In this document: positions 307 through 63,854 of the stretch, one piece after another
How positions within the stretch are numbered: the stretch's first letter is position 1
Layout: each line of letters opens with the position of its first letter
Source of the DNA: Sialis fuliginosa
Taxonomy: Eukaryota > Arthropoda > Insecta > Megaloptera > Sialidae
Direction of reading: 5' to 3'
Length of the DNA stretch: 64,000 bases
Assembly (NCBI GenBank): GCA_961205875.1
Contig: OY540810.1
Coordinates: 32,798,001-32,862,000 of the forward strand
Program-made: the position numbers and the translations under genes
Notes under the pieces: model-generated
Database searches by the model: none
What the model was told of the DNA's origin: nothing
Seen by the model: the letters and a program-made list of their open reading frames with translations, nothing else

Positions 307-756
307 ATGTCGGGCGTGCCTCATAACATAATACCAAATAGTGACGGAACCCGTCGAAGGCGACAATTCTCTATAGAAGAGAAAATTCTTCTGCTGCAAG
401 CCATAGATTCCGGCAGAAAGAAAGCCGATGTCGGCAAAGAGTTCGGTATCACATCATCTACTTTATCAACAATCGTAAAGAACCGTGCCCAAATCGAAGA
501 GTCGATAAAAAATGCAGACATGCGACTTCAGCGAAAGAGGATGCGAAGTGCGTTGTACGAGGATATAGACAAGGTCGTGTATGCTTGGGTTCTGGAGAAC
601 AAAACGAGAAACGTGCCCGTCAATGGACCCAGTATCAGACTGAAGGCTTTAGAGGTCGCCAATGAGCTGGGGCATGAGACGTTCCAGGCAAGTGCAGGAT
701 GGTTGAACAGATTTCGGGAACGGTATGGATTTGCGCTGAAATATCAAATAGGAGAG
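307..756 (+). CDS. Module A: alternative first coding exon with CENP-B/pogo-type HTH DNA-binding domain
   Basis: This is an open frame of 150 codons from ATG (context ACAAAAATGT) to a donor GAG|GTAAAT at 757. After the donor the frame runs only ten more codons into AT-rich sequence and a stop, so it is an exon and not a whole gene. Residues about 20-67 form a Psq/CENP-B N-terminal helix-turn-helix (FSIEEKILLLQAID, then GITSSTLSTIVKNR). Residues about 74-145 match the second, CENPB/Tc5-type HTH (ASAGWLNRFRERYGF). Such paired HTHs come from pogo/Tigger transposases and are used by host proteins such as CENP-B and jerky; no DDE catalytic domain follows. The donor is phase 0, like those of the four modules downstream, and joins in frame to the acceptor at 10692, giving a predicted 486-aa isoform. 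The splice is inferred from sequence. Confidence 0.8.
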
Positions 757-1934
757 GTAAATTTTGTTGTTTATTTTCATTTTGAATAGTTTATTAATTG
801 TTTCGTCGGTTGTTTTTCATATTTAGGTTATTGTTCATCCTTTTTATTCTCATAATAAAACTGATTGTTTGAGACTTCTTTGCTGGAACTTGAAGTATAT
901 TATTTATTGTTTTAGAATTATTAATGTTATCGAATATTTATTTCCTTATTGTGTTGAACGTTTTTGATAATATAAAGTTATCAAACGCGATTATAAAATT
1001 TATGTTATCTTGATATCAATATCACATTTGTAAAATTCAATTGGGCATTAATATTCAGTATGTAATAATAATAATGCTTGTTTCTTGGTAGGCTTGACTC
1101 TAGTCTGACAGAATAAATAATTAAGAGCGATATTATTTCCTTAAGTTATTGGCAGGTTCATTTCGAACATATTATCTTGTATAACATTTCGTTATAATAA
1201 AACACAACCTCGTGTAATGAAAGGTTAAAATCGATTCGTTTATTAGTAGTTCGGATTAACCGCTGTAGGGCGTTTCTGCGCATGCGCTAAATAGCCTTGT
1301 TGTCATGATGACTAGGTCATAACAGTGTGAACTGTGGATGAATAAGGATTGTGGTAAAGGTACAATATGAGATGGCCACTGTTTTTTTTTATGTTTTGTA
1401 GAATCTCAGACTGGTAACGTACAATTTTTGACATTAGATGCACATGCCTCTTTATTTCCATAATCTGTGTTTTTCTGAATTTAATAATGTTTGTTTCAAT
1501 CAATTTCGTCCAGTAGAAGTATTTACACCAAATAGTAAAACGTTACGTTATATGTTTATACTTTAATTTTAATTATGCAGATATGTATATTCTGTTATTC
1601 TATGAACATACATAGTACTGTTACTTACCTAAGATTCTACAAAAAGCAAGTAGCCGTCTAATATTGGACTTGACCTGAATTGCGTGTGTTCTTCATTTCA
1701 GATATTTTTTAATCATAGAATTTAAATATAACTGGAATGCTCAATAGAATCAGATAGGGCGGGTCGGGATAGATAAAAAAGAATGACCATTTACGTCGTA
1801 TATACACTATTGAAATTAAAAACGTGTTGATCTATTTTTGTTGTAGCATTAAATACGGTTTCGTCTTCAAACTAATTTAATAATATATAATTGATAATTA
1901 AATTTAATTCTTATTTTAAAATTCTGTGACTAAA
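757..1934. other. Intronic or intergenic stretch between modules A and B
   Basis: AT-rich DNA without a coding signal. TTTTTGTTGTAG at 1835-1846 is a plausible 3' splice site 88 bases before the THAP start codon. A GC-richer patch at about 1258-1290 (CTGTAGGGCGTTTCTGCGC) is unassigned. Confidence 0.5.
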
Positions 1935-2315
1935 ATGGGTAAAAAGTGTGCTTTAAAGACTTGTAGAAATTATTATCTAAATGGTTCTGATATCAGCTAT
2001 CACAGGTATGTAAAATATATTCCATATAAAAAAACACAATTCGATGTTCCAAATAAGACGTGTTTCGTGTGATATAACCGAATACAATAATTGTCATTCA
2101 GATTACCGGGAATCGAAGAAATACGCCAGAAATGGTTGGATGCAATTCCTGCGGATTTAATACAGCATAGATCTCAAGCAATGTACATATGCAGCGTGCA
2201 TTTCACGCCGGATAGTTTTCAGCCAGATACACTCGGATTGACGAGGAGGATGTTAAAAAAATCTGCAGTTCCTACTCTTTTCATCAACTTTTCGTCGGTG
2301 AATCCATTGTTAGAG
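1935..2315 (+). CDS. Module B: alternative first coding exons encoding a THAP zinc finger
   Basis: Two exons, 1935-2005 and 2102-2315, are joined across a 96-bp intron with donor CACAG|GTATGT and acceptor TCATTCAG|ATTACC, giving 95 codons. The product has the whole THAP C2CH signature: C5, C10, W35, C54 and H57 (YICSVHF), the HRLP turn at 23-26 and the closing AVPTLF box at 79-84. THAP fingers bind DNA in P-element-type transposases and in many animal transcription factors. The intron splits the Arg codon of HRLP, so the domain exists only after splicing and a single-exon search would miss its first half. An in-frame TAA lies eight codons before the ATG. The second exon ends GAG|GTAATA in phase 0, compatible with the constant exon at 10692 (predicted 431 aa). 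Confidence 0.82.
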
Positions 2316-2885
2316 GTAATAATTTAGAATTGTAATTTAATTATTTATATATAAAAAATACACAGTATCTGTAGAGGTAAAGAGTGCTCCCTAAACACTT
2401 TGATAAATTACAATAAAATACTTCTTTTTATTTAGAAAGTAGGAAGTTTTTTATATAAAAATATATTAAATAGTACTTATTCAAAATGTATTTCGATTTT
2501 TGTGTACATAAAATAAACGATTTTGTATATTTTATTTTGTTTAGTAAACCATCTGTAATCCTATAATTTTAACAAGATTCTAATATCATGTCTATTCCAT
2601 GAATATAGCCAATTGTTTGTAGGAAAGATTATAAATGAGAAACGATATTTAAAAAAATTTATTTATGGTCCGTTTTCTATCTGTATTCATACCCATCTTT
2701 TTGACGTCGAGTTCGCATCCAGTTATATTTTATTTCTATGGTTTTAATTTATCTATACATTGTTATTTAATATCTAAATTGATTATTATCGTTTTGTTGA
2801 TTATAAAATTATTGATAATGCGTTTTTTTTAATACCCGTTAGTCTTCTATCGTCAGAGCCTTAATTTTTTATAATATGTATATTA

Positions 2886-3554
2886 GGGTGGTCCTTATAT
2901 GGGGTTAGGACGAATTTTGACCGGGCCGCCCTCAAAACAGCTCCAAATAATTCAGAAATAATGTGGAAAAAGTTTCAGCCCTCTGTCTTAAAAAATGGCC
3001 ATTACTAGAGGCGGTGATTTTCCCATTTAAAATACACGTGTTTTCAAAGACGTGGGTACTAGGGTGTCTTAAACTCTTTCTAAAAATCTAGAATATTCAT
3101 GAAAGCATTCCTGGTACTCATATTCCATATCTAGATGGATAAATTAAATTTGTGATTCAACGTTGACAGCTTTTGTATTTAAAGATCAATGTTTTTATTG
3201 TCAAACGTTTTTCTGACAAAATTATCCAGAAATTATACAAAATTTTTTTTTTTTTAAATTTTCTTGTTAAAATCACACATTTAATTTATCCCTCTAGATA
3301 TGGAATATGAGTACCAGGAATGCTTTCATGAATATTCTAGATTTTTAGAAAGAGTTTAAGACACTCTAGTACGCAGGTCATTGAAAAATCGAAAAAACAC
3401 GTGTATTTTAAATGGGAACATCACCACCCTCTGGTAAAGGCCATTTTATAAGACAGAGGGCTGAAAGTTTTTCCACATTCTTTTTGAATTATTTGAAGCT
3501 GATTTGGGGGGCGGCCCGGTCAAAATTCGTCCTAACCCCATATAAGGACCACCC
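2886..3554. mobile_element. Foldback MITE with TA target duplication (TIR GGGTGGTCC)
   Basis: An almost palindromic 669-bp element between modules B and C. Its ends read GGGTGGTCCTTATATGGGG and the reverse complement CCCCATATAAGGACCACCC, with TA on both outer sides (2884-2885 and 3555-3556). The arms of about 310-330 bp pair through most of their length around a T-rich centre near 3240. TA duplication suggests mobilisation by a Tc1/mariner-type transposase. There is no coding capacity. Confidence 0.85.
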
Positions 3555-3680
3555 TAATGTATATCATACATGAGCTAGCCTGGTACCATTCATAAATGAG
3601 TTTTTTTATTGATATTATGTGTTTTTTTGATGACAGTCTACTCTTAATATTTCCCCGGGCCGGTACGATTAGATTTGCTA

Positions 3681-3704
3681 TTATTTCATTCTATTTGTTA
3701 ACAG
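3681..3704 (+). promoter_or_regulatory. Possible 3' splice site upstream of module C
   Basis: A pyrimidine-rich run ending TTTGTTAACAG| at 3704 lies 35 bases before the module C start codon. If used, it would make module C an internal exon fed by a leader exon outside the window. Alternatively the CAGTT here is part of an initiator (TCAGT-like), giving module C its own promoter. The sequence cannot decide. Confidence 0.35.
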
Positions 3705-3739
3705 TTAGATAACGTACTGTTAAAAATTTTATAAAAGAC

Positions 3740-4135
3740 ATGTCGAATAAACGTAAACGGGTTGTTTTAACAATCGAAGAAAAACTCGATATTATAAGAA
3801 AATTAGAACAAGGTTATCCGATACATCAACTTTCGGATACGTACAATATAGGCGTGACAACCGTACGCGACATTCGTTCGAATAAGGAGAAGATAGTCAA
3901 CTACGCAGCAAAATCTAACTCTAAACGTAGAACGATGAAACCATCCATGTACCAGCAGTTAGACATACCTATGTTGGAGTGGTATAATCGGCAAGTTGCT
4001 CAAGGTGTTACGGTATCGTCTTTGGAGTGTATGAAACAGGCTAGTTCGTTGTTCAAGGTGTTGGGAATGCAGGGGAACTTTAGCGCATCGACGGGATGGT
4101 TAATGAGGTTTAAACATCGGTACGGTATTAAAACG
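3740..4135 (+). CDS. Module C: second CENP-B/pogo-type HTH alternative first coding exon
   Basis: 132 codons from ATG to a donor ACG|GTGAGT, again phase 0; an in-frame TAA at 3710 supports this start. Residues about 10-55 form a Psq/CENP-B HTH (LTIEEKLDIIRKLEQG, then IGVTTVRDIRSNKEK). Residues about 63-130 form the CENPB/Tc5 HTH, ending ASTGWLMRFKHRYGI. It has the same architecture as module A and the same exon end just after the W..RF..RYG motif, but the two differ at most positions, so they are old paralogues or independent captures. No transposase core follows. Spliced to 10692 it would give a 468-aa protein. Reading through the donor adds only seven codons before TGA. Confidence 0.8.
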
Positions 4136-4617
4136 GTGAGTGAGATTTTAGCGACTTGAAATTGATTGATTCGGGCTAATGGTGTATTTGTGGTTTTTGT
4201 AGTTAATTTGGTATGTTATATGAAAAGAAAAATTGACGAAAAAAAGTATTTAGGGTGTTATTTTTAAAATACAATTTTGTGAGAGTATGCTTTTTATATA
4301 TTTTTAGAGATTGCAATTTAAATATTACGAATTTCATCCATTTTGATTCATGAAGCTCCAGGCCCATGTAGAGAATCAGTTTCAATAACGCAACTCCGAA
4401 ATGTTATTCAAAATTGATTGTTCAACGTCTATATCTTCTATGGTGTGACCATACATTTCATAGATAATAAATGAAATTATCAATCTATGGTCTTTGATTT
4501 TGCCCTTTCTTACGATTGACACACTAGAGAAGACATTGCTATGATTTTCCTAAATGTTTGGTAAACTTCAATTTAGAAAACAAAATATTCATAAGGCAAT
4601 GCCTTTGCATTGCATAA
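4136..4617. other. Spacer after module C
   Basis: AT-rich, with no domain and no convincing repeat ends. It leads into the degenerate open frame at 4618. Confidence 0.4.
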
Positions 4618-4917
4618 ACAAATATCAAAATTTACGAAATTAGTCCCAGATTTCGATACAGAAAATTAGCTTTTCTGCTGCATGACTCACATTTTGAAAG
4701 TCTGATATTACAAACTGATAATAAACGTAAAGAGGAAATTGACAGCGTAGATGAAGAAAACCAGATTGATGACAACTACAACCATTGTCAAATTGTGTTT
4801 ATCTTCAGTAAGATAAAAAGAAGTGGAGCAAGGTTCGTTGAGCATACGAAACAGTTGATGTACCAACAACTTAAGTCCCATGTAAGACTGTCCAACGAAA
4901 TTGAATTCTATTCATGA
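4618..4917 (+). other. Degenerate open frame, possibly the remnant of another module
   Basis: An uninterrupted frame of 99 codons follows a TAA at 4615 and ends at TGA 4915-4917. It has no ATG near its beginning. It reads through YRKLAFLLHDSHFES, then an acidic stretch (KEEIDSVDEENQID), then KIKRSGARFVEHTKQLMYQQL. The order (MADF-end-like WxxLxFL-type segment, acidic linker, amphipathic helix resembling a BESS motif) recalls MADF-BESS proteins, but the match is weak and made by eye. It could be a dead module, an exon with unrecognised splice sites, or chance. Confidence 0.2.
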
Positions 4918-5167
4918 TATGCTTGGCGTAGTCTTGAAATTGAATAAACATTATGCAGTATTCAGTTTATACTAGTAGTAAGGTGAAAATTGATAGAAAC
5001 GCTGAACTTATTAAATGTGAAGACAACTCTTAAACGTATAATAATTTCTAAAATTGGATTTAAACATTTAAATTATCAATTATTAAAAAAAACGTTCTTT
5101 TCTGCGCTTCTGGATGTCAGAATTTTCGTGAACTTAGATTCTCTATATCAATAATAATATCGTATTA

Positions 5168-5499
5168 TGCCCGGTATTATAAAGGACCTAACAAAATTTG
5201 TTAGCTAGCAATTACATTCATATGGGGTATTAATACTGTACTAGTATCTATGGATTAGTTATGGAATTTAGAGCAGTGACACTTCAATTAATTGTAACAC
5301 AGTTGGCATCTTTGACCGTACAAAATAATTTTCATAACATCACCACTGTTTTAATACCGTTCGTATTTACCTTCAACGCGTGCGCGAAACTTGTCAAAGT
5401 CATCAACAAACTCCAAAAGAACTGTCATATATGTTTGATACCTCAGTTGAAAGTGTTTGTTAGCTAACAAATTTGTTAGGTCCTTTATGATACCGGACA
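5168..5499. mobile_element. TWA-target MITE copy 1 (TIR TGYCCGGTATTATAAAG)
   Basis: A 332-bp element with inverted ends TGCCCGGTATTATAAAGG and CCTTTATGATACCGGACA, flanked by an exact TTA on each side (5165-5167 and 5500-5502). Subterminal landmarks AATTTGTTAGCTAGCAA and GGGGTATTA recur in other copies. The 3-bp TTA/TAA target suggests PIF/Harbinger-type mobilisation. The open frame inside it is not coding. Confidence 0.85.
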
Positions 5500-5599
5500 T
5501 TAAAGAAACAATTATCTTGTGGATAGTAATGAGTTATATGGTGTTATAGTAGGACTTAAGATGCGGATACACTAGAAAGTAATTTGTGATAGTTGATGC

Positions 5600-6859
5600 C
5601 ATAGAGATGTAATATAACTGGAGCGATAACTCTAATGGGCGAGTGTGCGTTGATAAAGATAGTTTCCAACGTACCGCCTTGCTTCTAGTCTTAGATTAGG
5701 AAAGACTATGGATACATAATAACCAATACTAGTCCGTATACGAAACTGTTACCAGAACCGCAAATAAGCTTTAAATTACAATTGAATTTGTTTTGTAAAA
5801 GAGATGCTGGTTGCAAACAGACATTTCTCTATTAATGATTTATCACTCAAGTAGTTTTAAATACTATATAAAGCATTTATTATTATTAATTAATTGTATA
5901 ATTCCAAACAATTGATTTCTATTTTAAAATCTGAATGGTACACCAATGACTCATTGGTGTACCATTCGGATGATTCATTTGTAGCGACGTTCCCACGCTA
6001 ACATATTAGATTTCCGAAATTTTAATGTAAATATTTCATACACACATTTATTTTTAAGAAATAATTTTATTGCAGTTTGGCGACAAATTTCTTACAGGAT
6101 TATAAAACTTTCAAATCTCTTAAGCCTGTCCATTTCGTTTTAAACACGTTCGATTTGGAATTCCCGATAATGCTGGCGGAAAGGTCCAATAAGGCTTAAA
6201 GGCTTTAAACATGCCGACCGGGGTTTTTCCAAAACGTTCTGAGTACGTTCTGAATTTTTCCCCCTCTCTAAATATCTATCGCTATCCTTGTCTAACCGCT
6301 CTGAAACAGGATCTTTCATTTTTCGAGACAAGAGAGTTCGTTTCAACTCCTGACATAGTAAACATCTCGCTACACATTCGGTCTCAACTACTGACATAGT
6401 AAACATCTCACTACAGTACCTTCGCGCTAAATACACATAATACACTATAAGTAACATACATCATACAATATATACAGTTATACAACAATAAATAAATAAT
6501 TACTAAAAACTTCGAAAGTGTTATTATTCAAAATGTACCTTGCACACAGTCACTAAACATTGATAATGACTCATGGAACGATTTTTTTGTGGAGCGATAT
6601 GGTAAAAACGATTGGTAGTGTGTTATGAGTCCTATATTGTCTAAGCTTCTAGTATTATCTAACCTAAACATGTTTTTGAGTTGTTTCCATGTTTACAACC
6701 AAATTTTGCGAATCCAATATTTTTAGTACAGAGAGTCGGTTCACGCTGTTAGCCAATCATAGCTTGTTAGACAAGGAAATGTGGTACCTGAGTATAAGCT
6801 ATCTCAAGTGACACATTTATAACATTGAGTTATCGTTTCAGTTATATTACATCTCTATG
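5600..6859. mobile_element. TIR transposon with 8-bp target duplication GTTGATGC (TIR CATAGAGATGTAATATAACT)
   Basis: A 1260-bp element whose ends are exact inverted repeats of at least 20 bp. The 8-bp GTTGATGC is repeated at 5592-5599 and 6860-6867. An 8-bp duplication points to hAT, P, Merlin or MULE-like transposition; I cannot choose. Inside, a near tandem pair (CTGACATAGTAAACATCTC at about 6352 and 6392) is present. An open frame on the - strand (6140-6457, 105 aa, K/R/E rich) shows no recognisable domain and I do not call it a gene. Confidence 0.85.
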
Positions 6860-7310
6860 GTTGATGCTTAAGTGTCGGGTATGCTAATGCAAGTAGAGTT
6901 TATTTAAAAAAAAGTTCCAAGAATAGCAGTTAACTTTATTAATACTTAACCCTTTACAAATTTTGTAGGCTTATGCGGTGATTTTGATATGAATTTTGGT
7001 TTCTGGGTAACCGCGTCGAATTAGTTATTTTCTCGACCAACTAACTGGAAACAGATGTTTTTGTTGTCAAATTTAGAATGTTTTTATAAAAGTTGTAGAG
7101 AATATTATGTATAATTTATGTCATCAATTTTTTCCATCTTTTATCATTTAGCCAAAAATATTTTTTTAATATAATTTGAAACACGCACACTGTACAGCGT
7201 ATAAGAAAGTTCCGTGGCACTAATGGAAGCTTTTTTTCTGTAAAATACACTAGCAAATTACGTGCCAGTGTATCCGCACATTTGGGCTGTGTTAAATGAT
7301 ATATTTTATA

Positions 7311-7330
7311 ATTTTTTTTTCTTGAATCAG
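7311..7330 (+). promoter_or_regulatory. Possible 3' splice site upstream of module D
   Basis: A run of ten or more T followed by CTTGAATCAG| ends at 7330, 31 bases before the BED module ATG. It has the form of a good acceptor. The overlapping TCAGTT could instead be an initiator element. An in-frame TAA lies between it and the ATG, so the ATG is the true start either way. Confidence 0.4.
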
Positions 7331-7361
7331 TTAATTATATTCGATTCACGCGCGTTTGAAA

Positions 7362-7779
7362 ATGCCGCGTGGTAAAAACGATTGTTTCGATCAACTGTTG
7401 TTCACATTAGTAAAAACAGGAAATAAGTACAGTGCGTTATGTACAGTTTGCAAGAAGTATTTGACCAACACTGCTGCATCTCGGTTACAAGCCCACAGGT
7501 AAGAGTTTTTAATATACATATATTCAACGATATAATTGTTTCAGTGTATGAACATTTCCGAAAACTTATAATTATACATGAAAATTATTCGTTTTTCATT
7601 ACAGAAGAGTTTGCAACATGCATCTAGGCGAACAGCCCTTTTGGTATGGGAGTAGTTCTATCTCAGGCCCCGCAAGACAAACTGCTTATCAAGAAAGACA
7701 ATACAGAAAGAATGACAATGAGTATTCGTCGTCAGTCAGTGCAGTTTTGGCAGAGTGTATTTTGGAAAAAGAAGGCCAG
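7362..7779 (+). CDS. Module D: alternative first coding exons encoding a BED-type zinc finger
   Basis: Exon 7362-7498 (donor CACAG|GTAAGA) joins exon 7605-7779 (acceptor TTTTTCATTACAG|AAGAGT), giving 104 codons. Splicing reconstructs a C2HC finger: C27 and C30 in ALCTVCKKYL, then H45 and C49 in QAHRRVC. This follows the BED pattern C-x2-C-x(n)-H-x(3-5)-[HC], with the aromatic and hydrophobic spacing expected before it. BED fingers are the DNA-binding part of hAT transposases and of DREF and BEAF-32. The intron falls inside the H-R-R-V-C segment, so neither exon alone shows the finger. The second exon ends CAG|GTAAAA in phase 0, in frame with 10692 (predicted 440 aa). The C-terminal 50 residues of the module are Ser/Tyr/Gln-rich linker. 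Confidence 0.72.
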
Positions 7780-8196
7780 GTAAAAATAGAAAAAAATTGT
7801 TTTGATGAACTTACTTTTAAGACAAAAACATTTATAATTTTCCTCTTTTTCTTCAAATCTGTTTAATCTTTAAAAATGAATAAAATTGTAGTTTCTAATA
7901 TTGTGTAGTTCTTTATTTTGTTTCCTTTCATATTTATTCGTTGTTTTTTTATTCGAGCGTTTTTCGGTATTTTATTATGATTGCGTTAGGTAAGGTTAAA
8001 TAATTACTTCTACTTACGATATACTTTGAAACTTTGCCTTGTAATATTAACTTGTAATTTTCGTATGTAATGCTCGTAGTAAACTATGTGGAATTTCGAT
8101 AATATTTGCAGAATACTGTGAAAATTTATAGTGAATATAATAAAAGACTAATAACAATAAAACATTAGTTGATCTCAGTGATTAGTTGAAAAGAAA
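7780..8196. other. Spacer between modules D and E
   Basis: AT-rich. ATCTCAG at 8172-8178 is a weaker possible acceptor 18 bases before the MADF start codon; the same bases read TCAGTG, like an arthropod initiator. No other feature seen. Confidence 0.4.
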
Positions 8197-8529
8197 ATGT
8201 CAGATTTAAAACGAAATTGGAAGAAAGTAGAAATAATGATACTAATTGAACAATTCAGAGAGTTACCAGAATTATGGGATGTAAATGCGAAACATTATCG
8301 CGATAAAAATAGAAAAACAATTGCTATTGAGTATTTAGCAAAAGAATTCGAAACAAGCGTTGCTGAAATATCTCGTAAAATACACAACCTCCGGTGTCAG
8401 TTTCATTCTGAAATGAGAAAGGAGAACGCCAGTAACCGTGGAGGAAAAACTTATAAAAGTAACTGGGAATTTTTTAATATGATGAAATTTATTGTTGGAA
8501 GCTGCTCAAACAAAATATTGTCGAAAGCG
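8197..8529 (+). CDS. Module E: alternative first coding exon encoding a MADF domain
   Basis: 111 codons from ATG (in-frame TGA at 8179) to a consensus donor GCG|GTAAGT, phase 0. Residues about 14-97 are a complete MADF (Myb/SANT-like in Adf-1) domain: LIEQFRELPELWDV near the N-terminus, IAIEYLAKEF, VAEISRKIHNLRCQFHSEM, and the late Trp in YKSNWEFF. MADF domains bind DNA and in Adf1, hinge3 and Dip3-type proteins are normally paired with a C-terminal BESS motif. None is present in this exon, but the constant exon at 10692 supplies two, so this isoform (predicted 447 aa) would rebuild the classical MADF-BESS layout. That is strong contextual support for the splice from 8529 to 10692. Confidence 0.83.
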
Positions 8530-8616
8530 GTAAGTTTGTCTATTTTTTTATTTTAAATCAAATAGCTGTTATATAGATATTGTATTTTAAATGTAATTAC
8601 TTATATTCCTATGTAC

Positions 8617-9129
8617 AGCTTTGGATCAAAAGTTAATTGTCCCAAAATTTCAGTCTCGTAGATCAAACCGAGTCTTTTTCCCATTTGATTAACATGGAAA
8701 AAATTACTTTTTTACTTATGTGTGAATAGCTCGTTGAAAAATTTATTTATTTTAATTTCTCACAGCAGCATGTTATAGAGAATTAAATTTCCTACAGAAA
8801 AGATCCCAAGTGCTCAATTCATAGATCCAGTATTTTAAAAGATACGTTCGTTTAAACATTATCATAAAAAGTAAAATCCAATTTTTATGATAATTTTTAA
8901 ACAAACATATCTTTAAAATTACTGGATTTACAAATAGAGCACTTAATTCTCTACAAAATATTGCTCTGAGAAATATTTAAAAAAATTATTTTCAACGAGC
9001 TATTCACGCGTAAGTAAAAAAGTAATTTTTCCCATGTTAATCAAATGGAAAAAAGACTCGGTTTGCGCAGTTCGCAGGTTTGATCTACAAGTTTGAAATT
9101 TTCGAACAATTAACTTTTCATCCAAAGCT
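8617..9129. mobile_element. Foldback MITE (ends AGCTTTGGATCAAAAGTTAA)
   Basis: A 513-bp imperfect palindrome between module E and the constant exon. The left end reads AGCTTTGGATCAAAAGTTAA and the right end is its reverse complement with one or two changes. The inner arms also pair (for example GTCTTTTTCCCATTTGATTA against TTAATCAAATGGAAAAAAGA). The flanking duplication is not clear. Confidence 0.75.
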
Positions 9130-10671
9130 AAAACATAGCCCAATGGGACCGAAAAAAAAACAGTGCTCTCCAGAATATTGTTGTGTCTTTTTTACTAATC
9201 GTAGTGAATACACATTATACATCATTTTTATATAAAGAGTGAATACATCATAAAGATACTAAAAGAAGAATTTAGAAATAAATGACATTTAAATTATATT
9301 TTTCAAGATGATTGAAAAATTAAATTCAGCAAGACCGATTGTATTACAAGATATTTATTATTTAGATGTACTTTAAAAATGATTATGTTTTATTAATTCA
9401 TTCCATGTTACGTTAATAAATTTGTATATTGTAAATAAACCTGTGGATAATATGAATGAATCATTTTAATGAATGAAACTTAAAACGATGAATCAACAAA
9501 GACCTGATCTACAAGAGAAAATAATAAACGGATTATTATGAATGACGACGTGGCTTTGAGAGAGGTGGCTCACATCGATATTACAGATCTCAGCAAAACT
9601 ATTTTTGGCTTCTGAAATACGTTCATTGTCTGCGGAAATTTCAATGAAGTAAATGAATACAAGGAGTTCTTTTGTAAATAAATGAAGAAGTTGGTATTTA
9701 CGATGAACACACCACCCTTGAAAATCGATTGGTACCTATATTGGAATTTCTATAGTAAAGGATGATTACCTTTTTCATTGTTAAATCTCAAGAAATAAAT
9801 ATGTAAAATGTATTTATTTTATATCTTTAAACATTTATAGCAAAATAAAAGTATACTATTTAAATATAATTGAGAAATTTTATTTATCTGTTTTTATTAT
9901 AATGTTCTATTTAACTTCTCATTAGGAAGTTATTGTAATCGGTCCAAAAATCAAAATAAAAAATTTCAACATATTTTTGTTTCAAGGTCACTATAGTATA
10001 TTTACACTATTTTCAGAAATATGTATGTGTGTGTGTTTATGTACGTATGCGCATACCATTTTTTACGTGCACGAAATCTCGCAAATAAAAAATGCTATTG
10101 ACTTCGTTGGGATGCGAATCGAAGCGTCTTGACGTGAATATGATCTGAAAAAGGATTTACGGGAGTAAAAGAGGTGTAAATGTTTGTGTGGGTAAAAATA
10201 TTTTTTTGGTCGGACTTACTTAAAACTTAGCATAAATAAATATTTTACATTACAAATAATGAAAAATGTATTTCAGTATTTTTTTACATGTGCCTTTCAT
10301 TGAAGAGGTGAAAACTACCCTCAAAATTTCATGTTTCCTTTAAAACAAACGCAATTAAATTCAAACTGTCAGATTAGTTATTCTAAAAATGTAAGAAGTA
10401 GAAATAATAGAAAATTAATATTCATAATACAAAGGTGAGTTTTATTTCTGGAAAAATTCCATTAAAATTTTTATATACATATCAAAAAATTATTTACATA
10501 AACTATAATAAATAATCAGTATTCAAGTATTTATAGTCATACCATGTGGGGTAAGTGCTTGTGTGGACCTCAAGGGTCGAACCTAAGTCTTGTTCTTTTT
10601 CAGTTTACCAAATAATACCCACCAATTGTTGTAAATCCATTATTTCTCGATTTTGAATAAATCACTTAAAT
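9130..10671. other. Rest of the long intron before the constant exon
   Basis: AT-rich, with a short GT-rich run at about 10022-10045. A patch at 9480-9760 contains short broken open pieces but no recognisable domain. No further DNA-binding module was found here by eye. Confidence 0.4.
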
Positions 10672-10691
10672 TTATTTCTTTATTTTTACAG
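10672..10691 (+). promoter_or_regulatory. Shared 3' splice site of the constant exon
   Basis: TTATTTCTTTATTTTTACAG is a textbook polypyrimidine tract and AG. The exon that follows starts with a complete codon (CAA). All five upstream modules end after a complete codon, so every one of them joins here in frame. Confidence 0.8.
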
Positions 10692-11702
10692 CAACCTGAA
10701 ATTGCACCGTCTACATCCGTCGATTACGAGAGCGGTTCAGTTTCCAATTCTTCAAACTTCCAGGTGAAGGCAGAGCCACTGGACATCAAACCAGAGATCG
10801 ACTACAGCCAATATGCGGGTATTCCAGACCATTTAGAAGACCCGCTGATAGCTTCCGTCAAAGTAGAACCGGACGAAGAAGATGAATCGATAGAAGAGAG
10901 TGACTACAGAATAACTACCCCAATCGTTGAATACCACGAACCGGATGTTGGGATATCCGAATGGTCGAACGGATCAGAGAAAAATGTATCAAATGACCCT
11001 CCTCCAGCAAAAAGAAAGAAAGTTACAAAAACTAAAGAAGTTCATCGTCAACTTGCAACATTACAACCGCCCAAAGAAGTCAGTCATGTGTTAACGAATG
11101 ATGAAGATGAGTATGATGTATTTGGGCAACACATAGCATCTCAGCTTCGATTGTTACCTACAGAAATAGCTCTGAAAGCTCAAGAAGAATTAAGAAGTGT
11201 TATATTAAAAATTATAACTAACTACATCAAAGAAAAAGAAAGTATTAAAGAACTAAGTCAAGATGAAGTTGTTATAAAAGATGTAGACGAAGAGGAAGAG
11301 AACATTAATACTGAAAATATAAATGTGAAAAATACAGAAGAAAATGATACAGATGGTAGGAAAAAGGTTGCTGCTGATGGAAGTAGTAAAGAAATGAACG
11401 AACCGGAGATGCGGAGAAGAAAAACGGCAGTTAGAACATTAAGTGAAAGTGAGTTAAGAAGAAATGAAGAATTAGGTATATTTGGTAAACAGATTGCGAT
11501 ACAGTTACGCGAGTTGCCCGCGACAATAGCGTTAGAAGTGCAGTCGGAAATAATATCTAGTGTGACTAAAAAACGGATTGAGTATCTTAGGACGCAAAGA
11601 GAATCTAGTGCAATATCTCGATGTACCAGTGATGAAAATGTGACGTTGCTTAGGAAATCACCGCTCGCGGAAAAAGTAGTGAAAAATACATATGCTTATT
11701 AA
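10692..11702 (+). CDS. Constant 3' coding exon: SUMO-site, NLS-like and tandem BESS-like tail shared by the modules
   Basis: 336 codons plus TAA, starting after the acceptor at 10691. An in-frame ATG at 10653 lies in the upstream intron and is not a good start. Residues 25-59 hold three psi-K-x-E sumoylation-type sites (VKAE, IKPE, VKVE) in an acidic context. Residues 103-115 (PPPAKRKKVTKTK) look like a nuclear localisation signal. Residues about 137-172 (DEYDVFGQHIASQLRLLP) and 258-292 (ELGIFGKQIAIQLRELP) are two BESS-like motifs, clearly copies of each other, joined by an acidic linker at about 187-222. BESS motifs mediate protein-protein contacts, including self-association, in MADF and related factors. 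The exon has no DNA-binding domain of its own, which fits a common tail for the modules at 307, 1935, 3740, 7362 and 8197. Confidence 0.8.
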   Translation, partial: QPEIAPSTSVDYESGSVSNSSNFQVKAEPLDIKPEIDYSQYAGIPDHLEDPLIASVKVEPDEEDESIEESDYRITTPIVEYHEPDVGISEWSNGSEKNVSNDPPPAKRKKVTKTKEVHRQLATLQPPKEVSHVLTNDEDEYDVFGQHIASQLRLLPTEIALKAQEELRSVILKIITNYIKEKESIKELSQDEVVIKDVDEEEENINTENINVKNTEENDTDGRKKVAADGSSKEMNEPEMRRRKTAVRTLSESELRRNEELGIFGKQIAIQLRELPATIALEVQSEIISSVTKKRIEYLRTQRESSAISRCTSDENVTLLRKSPLAEKVVKNTYAY

Positions 11703-15848: not shown

Positions 15849-16994
15849 TACTACGATATATAACGTATGTCTTATCAGTTTAAGCGTAAAAAATATCAAA
15901 GTTAATATTCAATGTTTTTAAATGCTGCGAGAAGTTCAAACATGCTTGACTGATTTAAATTTACTTTTTTCCTTATTTTATATATTACTTACAAAATAAC
16001 CAAGACGTTCCATTAAAATTTCAGGATTTGTGAAGTGTTCTGTCGTAGGAAAAGTTTAGGAAGCACTGTTCTACATCATACTTCAATATCAACCAAATTG
16101 AGTTATTGAGGGTAAAAAATATATTGAAAAAACCTCATAGAGAAACCATATTTAGTTTGTGCAATAAAGTTTTAACAGGTACGATTTTTCTAAAATATCT
16201 TAAAATTAATAAAATTAAAATTGATAAAAACCCAGCTCTAATGAATAAATAAGAAAGCACTCCGTCACAGCACTATATTATTCCGTCGCGGGAAAGTACC
16301 TACCATATAGGCCAGTCAGGATCCACTCAGGGCTAGCTACGTCACTGGTTACGATACTATATTATTGTTGGTTACGATATTTCATAAAACAGATATCGGT
16401 GCTTAGAATACATTGTCTGGAGGAATACGATAAAAGTTTTAACAGATTTTTTAGCGGAAAAGAGAATTTTGTCGCTTATATATGAGATTTTTAGAATCGA
16501 TAACTCAATTTCGCAAAAAGTGTATCTTACGATACTTTGCCTTGGAGGGGACGATATAGAAATAATTTAACCAGGTATGTTATAATTTAGGTATATAAAA
16601 ACATAGTACCTAGCCATGGAATACGGAATTTTATAATTTACGGTTTCAATATTTTATTTTATTAATTTAGGTTACTATGATTATGTCTCTTTAAAATATT
16701 TTTTGTCGAACAATTAAATGATTTTTGACACATATTAACAATTAAATATTTTGAAATGTCTATATTGATTGAAAATTTAAATATGAAGAAACATTTCACT
16801 TCCATGAAAGGTAAAATATCGAAATTAATTATTAGGTTTGGTGTAAATTTTTCGAAACACAATTTTTCGAATCACAATTTTTTGAATCAAAATTCTTCGA
16901 ATGAACAATTTTTCGAAAAATTTAAGTTTTATTGTTCAAATTTTAATTAGTTAATAAAATATTAAGTAAAGTAATATTTGGACATTTTACGATA
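15849..16994. other. Gene-poor stretch with a hAT-type end and a TTTTTCGAA repeat
   Basis: At about 16330-16347 GGGCTAGCTACGTCACTG looks like the end of a hAT MITE (reverse of CAGTGACGTAGCTAGCCC) without a visible partner. At 16844-16920 a loose tandem repeat of CACAATTTTTCGAAT-like units produces overlapping spurious open frames. No gene is seen. Confidence 0.5.
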
Positions 16995-17848
16995 TCCATA
17001 CTAATATTATAAATGCGAAAGTGTGTTTGTCTGTCTGTTTTCTGTTTGTTACCTTTTCACGGCTAAACCGCTTTACCGATTTTGATGAAATTTGGCAGTG
17101 AGATAGCTTGCATCCCGAGGACGGACATAGGCTATTTCGTATCTTAAAAATTCAACCCCTAAGAAATTGCAAGGGGGTAGAAATTTTTTAATTTTTTTTA
17201 GTAATTATTATTTTACCCCCCGATACATATGAAGGGTTGTAAGTGGTTTTATTCGATCCGGCGGGAAAAATACCACGGGAGCGTAGGTTTTAGGGGGCAA
17301 AACAACCCTCTATCTCGCATAGGAGCCGAGATATTTACGATTTTGTATAATGAAAGAAAACTAAAAATAAAAAAATTTAATATTTTACCCCCTGTCACAT
17401 ATGAAGAGTTGTAATTGATTACATTCGATCTGGCGGGCAAAAATACTACGGAAGAGGGATTATTAGGGGGACAAAACAACCCCTTATCTTACATAGGAGT
17501 CGCGACTTATATTATAAATGCGAAAGTGTATCTCTCAGTCTGTCTATTTGTTACCTGTTCACGACTAAACTGCTTTACCGATTTTGATGAAATTTGGCAG
17601 TGAGATGGCTTACATCCCAAGGACGGATTAAGGCTATTTCATATCTCGAAAATTCAACCCCTAAGGAATTGCAAGGGGGAGGAAAATTTTTAATTTTTTT
17701 TAGTAATTAATATTTTACCCGTTACATATGAAGGGTTGTAAGTGGTTTTATTCGATCCAGCGGGAAAAATACCACGGGGGTGGGGGTTTTAGGGCGGAAA
17801 AACCCCTCTATCTCGCATAGGAGCCGACACATTTACGATTTTGTATAA

Positions 17849-19178
17849 CACTGGTAAACACTGTTTTTGTCACACGTACTTTGTGATGATTTTTGTTCAT
17901 GTTGGTGTACCCTCATTAACAATATATAATAATTTTGTTTCAATCACGTCCAGTTTTTTTGTGACAGCTACATATTCATTTATGACCTCATATACGTGTC
18001 TTTTTTTTAATAATTTCATTTAGACGACTGTATACCTATTGCATTCAACTAACTTACATCTTATATACGTTTGTTACATCGTAAACATGTCACGAAAGTG
18101 TTCTAACAACCCCGACAGTTTTTGTTATTTGTGTGGAGAATTAACTTTTACAACTCAGCGTCGAAATTTCACATCATTAATTGAACAGTGCTATTTAGAC
18201 TATTTTGGATTTCCTGTGAGGAATAAAGATAAATCCTGGGTTCCACATAAATGTTGTGTAACGTGTGTGAGACTGCTATTAGGTTGAGCTAAACAAGAAC
18301 CCAGACATATGCCATTTGCTATACCAATGATTTGGACCGAACCAAAGGATCATGTAAGTGATTGTTATTTTTGTTTGACTCAAACAAAAGGCATTACAAC
18401 CAAGGCCAAACACACTATCCAGTATCCAAACTTGTCTTCGGCCAACAGACCCATCCTACATAGTACCGAACTGCCTGTGCCAAAGCCTCCAAATCGATCA
18501 AAAAGTCAGGATTTGTATATCTGAAAGAGAAATTCCCCAAACTCAGCGAGGCAAAAATTAAAGAGGGAATATTTGTAGGTCCACAAATACGGCAACTGAT
18601 AAAGGATAAGAGCTTTGAAGAAAAACCAAATTATCAGGAAAAACTCGCCTAGAAATGTTTTGTGAACGTTGTCCAAAATTTTCTAGGAAACCATAAATCG
18701 GAAAATTACAAAGACTTAATAAATGAACTTATAATGTCATATAAAGCTTTGGGGTGTAATATGTCCTTAAAAATACATATGCTGGACTCTCATCTGGATT
18801 TCTTTCCGGCAAATTTGGGTGCTGTGAGTGATGAACAAGGCGAGAGGTTCCATCAGGACATTTCCTTAATGGAGAAGCGCTATCAAGGGAAATGGAGTCC
18901 AGGAATACTAGCAGATTATTGTTGGAGACTTAAAAAAGACCTTCCAGAAGCCAAATATTCACGAAAATCATAAGTATTTATTCTATATTAAGCAATAATT
19001 TCTCTAAATGTAGCTGATGTTTGTACTTTTTACGAAAATATATGTTTTGATGTCACAAGGAAACCTGACGTGTCAATTTTTTTTCATTCACATATTATTG
19101 TTTGGTGGCCCTAGTACATTCAAAATTTGATATAAGTTTTCATGTGACAAAAAAAAGTTCAAATTTTGTTGACCAGTG
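17849..19178 (+). mobile_element. TIR transposon nested in the Helitron, TAA target duplication (TIR CACTGGTMAACA)
   Basis: The left end is CACTGGTAAACACTG and the right end GTTGACCAGTG. TAA flanks both sides (17846-17848 and 19179-19181). The empty site is visible in the Helitron's own other repeat, which reads TTTGTATAATGAAAGAAAAC where this copy has TTTGTATAA[element]TTAAAGAAAAC. TTTTTGTCACA follows both TIRs internally. The 1330-bp element carries the broken gene at 18087-18973, so that gene family appears to be mobile-element cargo or a transposase. Confidence 0.8.
18087..18973 (+). pseudogene. Internally deleted copy of an insect-wide unnamed multi-copy protein family
   Basis: The reading starts at ATG 18087 (MSRKCSNNPDSFCYLCGEL) with paired cysteines (FCYLCGE, HKCCVTC). 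It meets an in-frame TGA at 18285, where a Trp codon is expected, then continues (HMPFAIPMIWTEPKDH, DCYFC). At about 18500-18510 it jumps to a C-terminal part (YLKEKFPKLSEAKIKEG), broken once more at TAG 18651. It ends FFPANLGAVSDEQGERFHQ ... KYSRKS at TAA 18971-18973. I recognise the family as uncharacterised proteins present in many copies in arthropods; full members are much longer, so the central several hundred residues are deleted here. The conserved cysteine pairs suggest a zinc-binding N-terminus. Function is unknown. Its place exactly between TIRs suggests a transposon-encoded protein. Confidence 0.75.
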
Positions 19179-19280
19179 TAATTAAAGAAAACTAAAAATA
19201 AGATAAATTTAATATTTTACCCCCTGTCACATATGAAGGGTTTCGAAATCCACGCGAGCGAAGTCGCGGGTAGCAGCTAG

Positions 19281-22830: not shown

Positions 22831-22972
22831 GCTAATAATAATACACACATGAATTTTTGAATAAATCGCGGGCACCGCCGTTTGGCGACTTTATCATAAT
22901 TCTTACTGGAGTGTCTCTTATACATACATATATCCAGCAGATAAACATTATAGTTCACATAAATCAGCATAA

Positions 22973-23206
22973 TGTCCGGTATTATAAAAGAGCTAGCAAA
23001 TTTGCTAGCTAGCAGTAATTCTTCAACTTATTGTAACACAGTTAGCGATTCTGACTGTACTAAATAATTTTCATGTTTTAATACCGTTGGTGTTTACATA
23101 CCACGTGTGCGCGAAAATTGTCAAACACTTCATGAAACTTAAGGAGAACTGTCAGATAGGTTAGAAACTTCAGCAAATTTTGCTAGCTCGTTTATAATAC
23201 CGGACA
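22973..23206. mobile_element. TWA-target MITE copy 2
   Basis: 234 bp with ends TGTCCGGTATTATAAAAGAG and CTCGTTTATAATACCGGACA, flanked by TAA on the left and TAT on the right. The internal AGCTAGCAAATTTGCTAGCT palindrome is well preserved. Confidence 0.8.
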
Positions 23207-63088: not shown

Positions 63089-63854
63089 CATGGGCTGAAA
63101 AGTATTTGGCTTAAAAATGAAAAAAACGATTTTTTTATCGAAAAAAACTATTTTATTCTTCGACATAATCGCCATCTAGTTTCTCGAGTAATACTCTTGT
63201 TCCAATGGTCCTCTAGCATTTTGATACCAGCCTTACAGTGGTTCGCGTCAAGTCCCTCAAAATAGGCGTTTGTTTCCAATTCGATTTCTCCATTAAAGTA
63301 AAATCTTTTACCAGAGAGCCACATTTTCAATTTCAGAAAACGTAGTAGTCGCTGGGGGCCAGGTCAAGAGAATACGGTGGGTGCGGAACCAATTCATAGC
63401 GCAATTCCTTCAATTTATCGGTCGTAACGTGATCCTTGTGAGATAGTGCATTGTCTTGGTGAAACAGCATTTTTTCTTTTGAAATGCCTATGGTGTTAGC
63501 TAGCTCACTCACTTTCACTTTGCGGTCATTCAACATAAGTTTTCGAATATTTTCTGGAGTAACTGCCTCATTTGGCCTTTCTGAACGTGGTGCATTATTT
63601 GTGCACGACGAAACTCAGTAAATCAATATTTATCAAGCCATTCCTTTGTTTGGACAGTATTTTCCCATCAAAAAACAATGATTAAAAAAATAACAAAAGT
63701 AGCATCACTTCGAAGGCTGTAAACTTGAACAAGAGTACATGAAATATCATGAAATTGACAGTATTCTAGTAAAGGTTGGTACTGTATGGAAAGCATAAGG
63801 ATTTTTTGTATATGTCGCCATCTGTTTGTCAGACCAAAGACTTTTCAGCCTATG
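63089..63854 (-). mobile_element. Internally deleted mariner element
   Basis: The ends are CATGGGCTGAAAAGTATTTG and, inverted, AGACTTTTCAGCCTATG. The 766-bp length compares with about 1.3 kb for a complete mariner. The clear TA duplication is lost on the left. It carries the broken transposase at 63148-63600. Confidence 0.8.
63148..63600 (-). pseudogene. mariner transposase remnant
   Basis: The - strand reads a linker piece (NDRKVKVSELANTIGIS), then jumps directly to MLFHQDNALSHKDHV and PHPPYSLDLAPSDYYVF, so the region with the first catalytic Asp is deleted. The second Asp (HQDNA) and the Asp of SDYYVF remain. A frameshift near 63334 moves to KMWLSGKRF ... NAYFEGLD, and another occurs near 63180 before the usual GDYVE-type end. 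It cannot encode an active transposase. Confidence 0.8.

Follow-up and report, generated by a model that had tools for sequence, protein, structure and literature searches.

Described systems and the Sialis fuliginosa locus

In lola, mod(mdg4), and Broad, a common N-terminal BTB domain is combined with a DNA-binding part at the C terminus. Here, we analyzed a candidate locus of the megalopteran Sialis fuliginosa that would share with these genes the principle of one gene, many DNA specificities, and one common interaction domain, but in which the order is reversed, the DNA-binding part being N-terminal. The locus occupies positions 307 to 11702 of a 64,000-nucleotide stretch (the window, which is the whole stretch of DNA analyzed; assembly GCA_961205875.1, contig OY540810.1, positions 32,798,001 to 32,862,000), whose own numbering is used throughout. 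Five DNA-binding modules, or heads, lie in tandem on the + strand at 307-8529, in the order CENP-B, THAP, CENP-B, BED-like, and MADF, ahead of a single 3′ exon (the tail, 10692..11702).

The closest described counterpart is BEAF-32. As excerpts of one report have it, a single gene gives rise to both BEAF-32A and BEAF-32B, presumably through alternative promoters; their ~80 N-terminal residues differ, each version with a BED finger, and their ~200 shared residues derive from one exon, in which a BESS mediates BEAF-BEAF interaction (PMC5021357). In an excerpt of another, BEAF-32 is probably limited to Drosophila or drosophilids (PMC5094011). Set against these excerpts, the S. fuliginosa locus is alike, at the level of sequence, in having alternative DNA-binding N-termini in phase with a single C-terminal exon. 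It differs in that BEAF-32 has two N-termini, both BED, whereas five heads of four folds are present here, with a longer tail carrying two BESS-like repeats. As against the two BED-finger N-termini of BEAF-32, one BED-like head lies in the window, which opens at position 1, just ahead of the first head (ATG at 307); more heads may lie upstream of that start. An earlier, sequence-only reading of this DNA had proposed interchangeable heads on one tail, the reverse of lola. The layout was supported by the sequence and has a precedent: in BEAF-32A/B as excerpted, N-termini that each bind DNA already alternate in front of a BESS-bearing tail, and five heads of four folds would be an extension of that design. 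The same reading knew of no gene described to use DNA-binding domains of four unrelated folds as its alternative N-termini; we likewise found none in the open-licence literature (weak evidence of absence), with the general layout precedented as above. An array of five modules with four unrelated, transposon-linked folds is still unusual.

A partial likeness is also seen in Dip3, which has an N-terminal MADF and a C-terminal BESS, and in Hinge1-3, which are MADF-BESS factors as well, according to excerpts of PMC6274879 and PMC4451555. These factors, like the present locus, combine MADF with a BESS-type partner domain; unlike it, they have a single head, where MADF here is one of five.

We favor, at a probability of about 0.72 as judged from the DNA alone, one shared-tail gene used by most of the heads, and the multi-head locus is probably real, with an extended BEAF-32-like design. 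Each head, made of one or two exons with its own start codon, would be spliced after a whole codon to the single 3′ exon, such that the choice of promoter or 5′ exon would set the head and, through it, the DNA site; each head may have a separate promoter. The tail, predicted to be mostly disordered and nuclear and to end in two BESS-like hairpins, would give all products the same partners and permit homo- and hetero-oligomers. We infer that each module uses the tail and that five factors or more come from this one locus.

DNA-binding heads

All five modules have their own ATGs, and the donors placed by the sequence-only reading after complete codons (756, 2315, 4135, 7779, and 8529) are indeed GT sites at codon boundaries, in phase 0. 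Each head ATG has a purine at −3. An in-frame stop lies 5-14 codons upstream, with no other ATG between, in five of five cases, one more than the four previously counted. The CENP-B, THAP, and MADF labels given to four of the modules were all borne out above Pfam curated cut-offs. Splice sites were scored with a generic splice matrix and ranked among the 3533 GT and 2898 AG sites of the window.

Module 1 (307..756, 150 amino acids; upstream stop at 262, donor after 756) matched CENP-B_N at 38.9 bits and HTH_Tnp_Tc5 at 64.5 bits, and its comparison with the human CENP-B DNA-binding domain (1hlv_A) matched residues 4-129 (E 7.4e-19). Module 3 (3740..4135, 132 amino acids; donor after 4135) matched the same two families at 41.2 and 46.6 bits and 1hlv_A at E 1.1e-10. 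In both modules, the two halves of the CENP-B/Tc5 unit exceeded their Pfam cut-offs and together spanned the domain, covering nearly the whole 1hlv domain structure. The two heads share 25.8% identity over 128 amino acids (E 9e-14). Tandem duplication of one head was considered and rejected as the source of the array, the CENP-B heads being the only related pair and other head pairs reaching no better than E 3.7.

The canonical THAP signature comprises C2CH zinc ligands and an AVPTxF box. Module 2, once its exons are joined, scored 59.3 bits against a THAP cut-off of 23.9 and matched the THAP1 structure 2ko0_A at E 1.3e-9, and its translation retains four zinc ligands and an AVPTLF box. Exon a (1935..2005; 23 codons plus 2 nucleotides) carries C5 and C10 and has a donor of rank 13; exon b (2102..2315) carries C54, H57, and the box and ends at the donor after 2315, the internal intron being in phase 2. 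Module 5 (8197..8529, 111 amino acids; donor after 8529) matched Pfam MADF_DNA_bdg at 71.4 bits over the whole profile (1-84 of 84).

The fourth module, previously labeled BED, has the ligand pattern but no family match. BED fingers have a beta-beta-alpha fold and follow the pattern C-x2-C ... H-x3-5-[HC], and the translation of module 4 contains C27-x2-C30-x14-H45-x3-C49, which fits BED-type spacing. No Pfam family, zf-BED included, matched the module at E ≤ 1 or its exon a at E ≤ 10; the best PDB match, with a zinc-finger chain of ZBTB24, reached E 0.099, with no stretch passing; and a single-sequence AlphaFold2 (AF2) model of exon a, which does not contain C49, was all helix at low confidence, with a pLDDT (predicted local distance difference test) of 66. 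We thus name this head BED-like, after its ligand pattern. Exon a (7362..7498) carries C27, C30, and H45 and has a donor of rank 6, and exon b (7605..7779) carries C49 and a linker, with an acceptor of rank 18, the donor after 7779, and an internal intron again in phase 2. The internal introns of both two-exon heads sit between zinc ligands, so a finger would form only after intron removal.

The head exons have a GC content of 0.31-0.47, as against 0.29 in the sequence between heads, the excess being slight for THAP exon a (0.31) and MADF (0.32).

Proposed common tail exon

The tail exon (10692..11702, + strand) encodes 336 amino acids and a stop in phase 0, behind an acceptor ending at 10691 that scores 11.56 and ranks 4 of 2898. 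Its frame is closed upstream by a stop at 10632, and its first in-frame ATG, at 11394, is codon 235, so full translation of the tail requires an upstream coding exon. The matching phase claimed earlier for this exon was confirmed: all five head-tail joins are open, giving 486, 431, 468, 440, and 447 amino acids for modules 1 to 5, whereas the other two frames of the tail stop after 24 and 1 codons.

AF2, run on the single sequence, modeled the tail at a mean pLDDT of 55.8, with 198 of 336 residues below 50. Two helical hairpins stand out, at tail residues 138-189 (11103..11258; helices 138-153 and 157-189) and 252-310 (11445..11621; helices 252-273 and 277-310), with cores at residues 141-180 and 251-300 whose block mean pLDDT is 84-88. 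The second is a duplicate of the first; the internal alignment scored 110 as against a maximum of 72 in 500 shuffles, a score to which shared acidic stretches contribute. The tail had been called a BESS exon, BESS being a short C-terminal helical module for protein-protein contacts. Pfam did not support the label, with no BESS match for the whole tail at E ≤ 1 or for any of three tail pieces at E ≤ 10, and comparison of the tail with the PDB gave a best sequence E of 1.2 and a best fold E of 5.4, with no fold match at E ≤ 0.001. As an excerpt of PMC4451555 reports that BESS is somewhat degraded in Hymenoptera relative to Drosophila, copies outside Drosophila may escape Pfam. “BESS-like” is our reading of the modeled hairpins, not a family assignment. 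Three SUMO-like psi-K-x-E motifs (VKAE, IKPE, and VKVE; 10764..10868) and a nuclear localization signal-like PPPAKRKKVTK (10998..11030) were identified by their patterns and may be due to chance.

Probable pairing of heads and tail

Several controls bear on whether the heads and tail could be chance open reading frames (ORFs) and whether other partners exist. Behind the 728 acceptors of the + strand of the 64 kb with a score of 2 or more, just three open stretches in phase 0 exceeded 88 codons, namely the tail (336 codons) and two parts of it (312 and 185 codons), and in ten first-order Markov windows the longest acceptor-led open stretch was 78-124 codons, as against 336 in the real one. On the two strands of the 64 kb, the three single-exon heads were the only ATG frames of at least 60 codons that ran to a phase-0 donor scoring 6 or more; dropping the phase condition added three donors within the two CENP-B modules (+ strand) and, on the − strand, two candidates. 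Donors of any phase (score at least 6) behind an ATG frame of at least 100 codons averaged 0.1 across 40 second-order Markov windows, compared with five on the real + strand; these five lie within the two CENP-B modules and MADF, and the farthest in each is the phase-0 donor named above. Chance ORFs were ruled out by these controls and the Pfam scores. Over the + strand of the 64 kb, no hidden alternative 3′ exon rose above noise, but small exons in series may exist. From these searches, there is one plausible large destination for the heads, and there are five plausible sources for the tail. A Pfam scan of 1-11.7 kb (three + frames and one − frame) found no domain beyond the heads at E ≤ 0.1.

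Phase may also protect the arrangement. Five wrong joins were tested, in which an upstream head was followed by THAP exon b, BED-like exon b, or both and then the tail; since the internal introns are in phase 2 and the outward donors in phase 0, these joins shift the frame and stop 16-22 codons past the head. Phase-2 internal introns would therefore act as a guard that makes wrong joins non-productive.

A number of observations weigh against a gene in which most heads use the shared tail. While the outward donors of modules 3 and 5 rank 7 and 8 of 3533, those of modules 1, 2, and 4 are just moderate (63, 145, and 94), and the acceptor inside THAP, at rank 686 of 2898, is weak. The site ending at 10691 is strong, as first proposed, but is not the sole strong one: the site at 10603 scores 11.22, and a phase-0 join there (at 10604, read by eye) meets a stop after 3 codons, and the site at 10763 scores 10.42, with a join at 10764 that is in frame and loses the first 24 tail codons. 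BED-like exon b, moreover, has a strong acceptor, and transcripts from upstream heads must skip that exon; this skipping and the 10603 acceptor are the least comfortable point of the shared-tail model. Three of the five modules have an acceptor scoring at least 6.7 within 150 nucleotides upstream of the ATG, against a background of 25% of 1070 ATGs, so a common leader exon is possible instead of separate promoters. The module flanks show no convincing common motif; T-rich words behind the donors exceeded the mean of 60 simulations, not their maximum, and docking/selector pairing and a shared promoter or splice motif were rejected as within the range of the 60 simulations. Lastly, a protein collection yielded no homologue (E ≤ 0.01) of the tail among 2852 candidates or of MADF plus tail among 6761, and none was found in viral contigs (tail, module 1, and MADF) or in bacterial and archaeal genomes (tail), misses that say little on conservation, insects being probably rare or absent in these collections.

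Alternative explanations

The shared-tail gene can be weighed against three other accounts, with some probability left to further arrangements. In one, MADF (8197-8529) alone joins the tail as an ordinary MADF-BESS-like factor, and each of the four heads upstream is a separate gene, or a first exon with partners that are small or lie outside the window. MADF plus BESS is a known pair (excerpts of PMC4451555 and PMC6274879), and the MADF donor is strong and, at 2.2 kb, nearest the tail. We nonetheless hold this account to be unlikely: after any head there is no second large phase-0 exon on the + strand in 64 kb, the Pfam scan of the first 11.7 kb (three + frames and one − frame, E ≤ 0.1) adds no domain to the heads, and the upstream heads end in phase 0 too. 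Alternatively, the heads might mainly yield short DNA-binding proteins through read-through of their donors, by intron retention or early polyadenylation, that compete with the full-length factors. Stops at 789, 4159, and 8556 do come soon past the donors of modules 1, 3, and 5, which have a single exon each, and hexamers like poly(A) signals lie behind each head, but such hexamers are expected at 70% AT, and the strong tail acceptor and start-less 336-residue exon would be left with fewer heads or none; we give this account very little weight.

Least probable, by a small step, is that the heads are what is left of separate DNA transposons (pogo/Tigger, P, hAT, and PIF/Harbinger) set in tandem by chance in a repeat-rich region. 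In its favor, an excerpt of PMC10027918 lists ZBED, CENPB, and THAP as transposon-derived factor families and has MADF as likely derived from the PIF superfamily (though its authors set MADF aside), and three inverted-repeat elements lie between modules or ahead of the tail. Against it, a scan of four of the six frames over 1-11.7 kb found no transposase catalytic domain beside the heads (E ≤ 0.1), and the five heads are all open, in the same orientation, and in the same phase.

Possible origin of the heads and surrounding sequence

If the BED-like head is accepted as such, all four kinds of head would belong to families that the excerpted source treats as transposon-derived or, for MADF, as likely so. 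With no transposase domain beside the heads in the four frames scanned, any capture would be old or of the head alone. A scenario that we put forward tentatively, at slightly less than even odds, is that the tail has been a docking site for transposon-type heads over time (pogo/CENP-B twice, P/THAP, hAT/BED, and PIF/MADF), kept apart by phase-2 introns, and that mixed oligomers join the five specificities in an expanded BEAF-32-like architectural factor. Vertebrate host-transposase fusions, in which a transposase-type DNA-binding domain is joined to a host effector part, have reportedly been described by Cosby et al. in 2021, a study cited in PMC8700633. Such fusions usually have one captured domain per gene, unlike the present locus, where five heads would feed one tail if a capture origin is right.

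The intervals between modules contain palindromic elements, which reveal insertions in the locus, not the origin of the heads. One, at 2876-3564 between THAP and the second CENP-B head, has arms of 62, 83, and 117 nucleotides that are 89-95% complementary, with TAGGGTGGTCC near its start, and is probably a miniature inverted-repeat transposable element. Another, at 8617-9129 between MADF and the tail, has arms of 53, 63, and 123 nucleotides (85-89%). A short repeat resembling GGTATNATAAANGANCTANCAA by eye occurs at 5194-5474 (inverted arms of 40 nucleotides, 80%), near 65-90, and at 22971-23000.

Downstream of the locus, 12000-64000 looks gene-poor and repeat-rich: these 52 kb hold no stop-to-stop ORF longer than 106 amino acids, and none of the nine ORFs scanned, out of eleven of at least 90 amino acids, reached a Pfam cut-off. 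A decayed coding stretch with stops, beginning with MSRKCSNNPDSFCYLCGEL by eye, lies at 18087-18973 inside a repeat-rich block (~16990-19280), and its 106-residue last piece had no Pfam match. On the − strand, a 93-residue ORF at 63333-63614 gave a sub-threshold Pfam HTH match (17.7 bits, cut-off 23.1) and presumably resembles the end of a mariner-type transposase. The window contains no RNA family at gathering score and no tRNA.

The assembly comprises 14 long contigs (C1-C14, 16.8-47.1 Mb) and six small ones (C15-C20, 15.6-25.6 kb). CCTAA telomere repeats were seen at the start of eight (C2-C8 and C12) of the ten long contigs sampled by their first 1,000 bases or more (C1-C8, C10, and C12); C1 starts with a run of N, and C10 showed none. 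COX1 is readable in C20 with the invertebrate mitochondrial code.

Implications

If a gene of this kind is confirmed, one locus would yield factors that bind DNA through four unrelated folds and have one partner domain in common, and an existing factor could acquire a new DNA specificity when a head ending in a phase-0 donor comes to lie upstream of a receptive exon. Such a locus would then offer a natural test of how insulator-like factors of the BEAF-32 type arise in other insects and of the serial recruitment of transposon-type DNA-binding domains.

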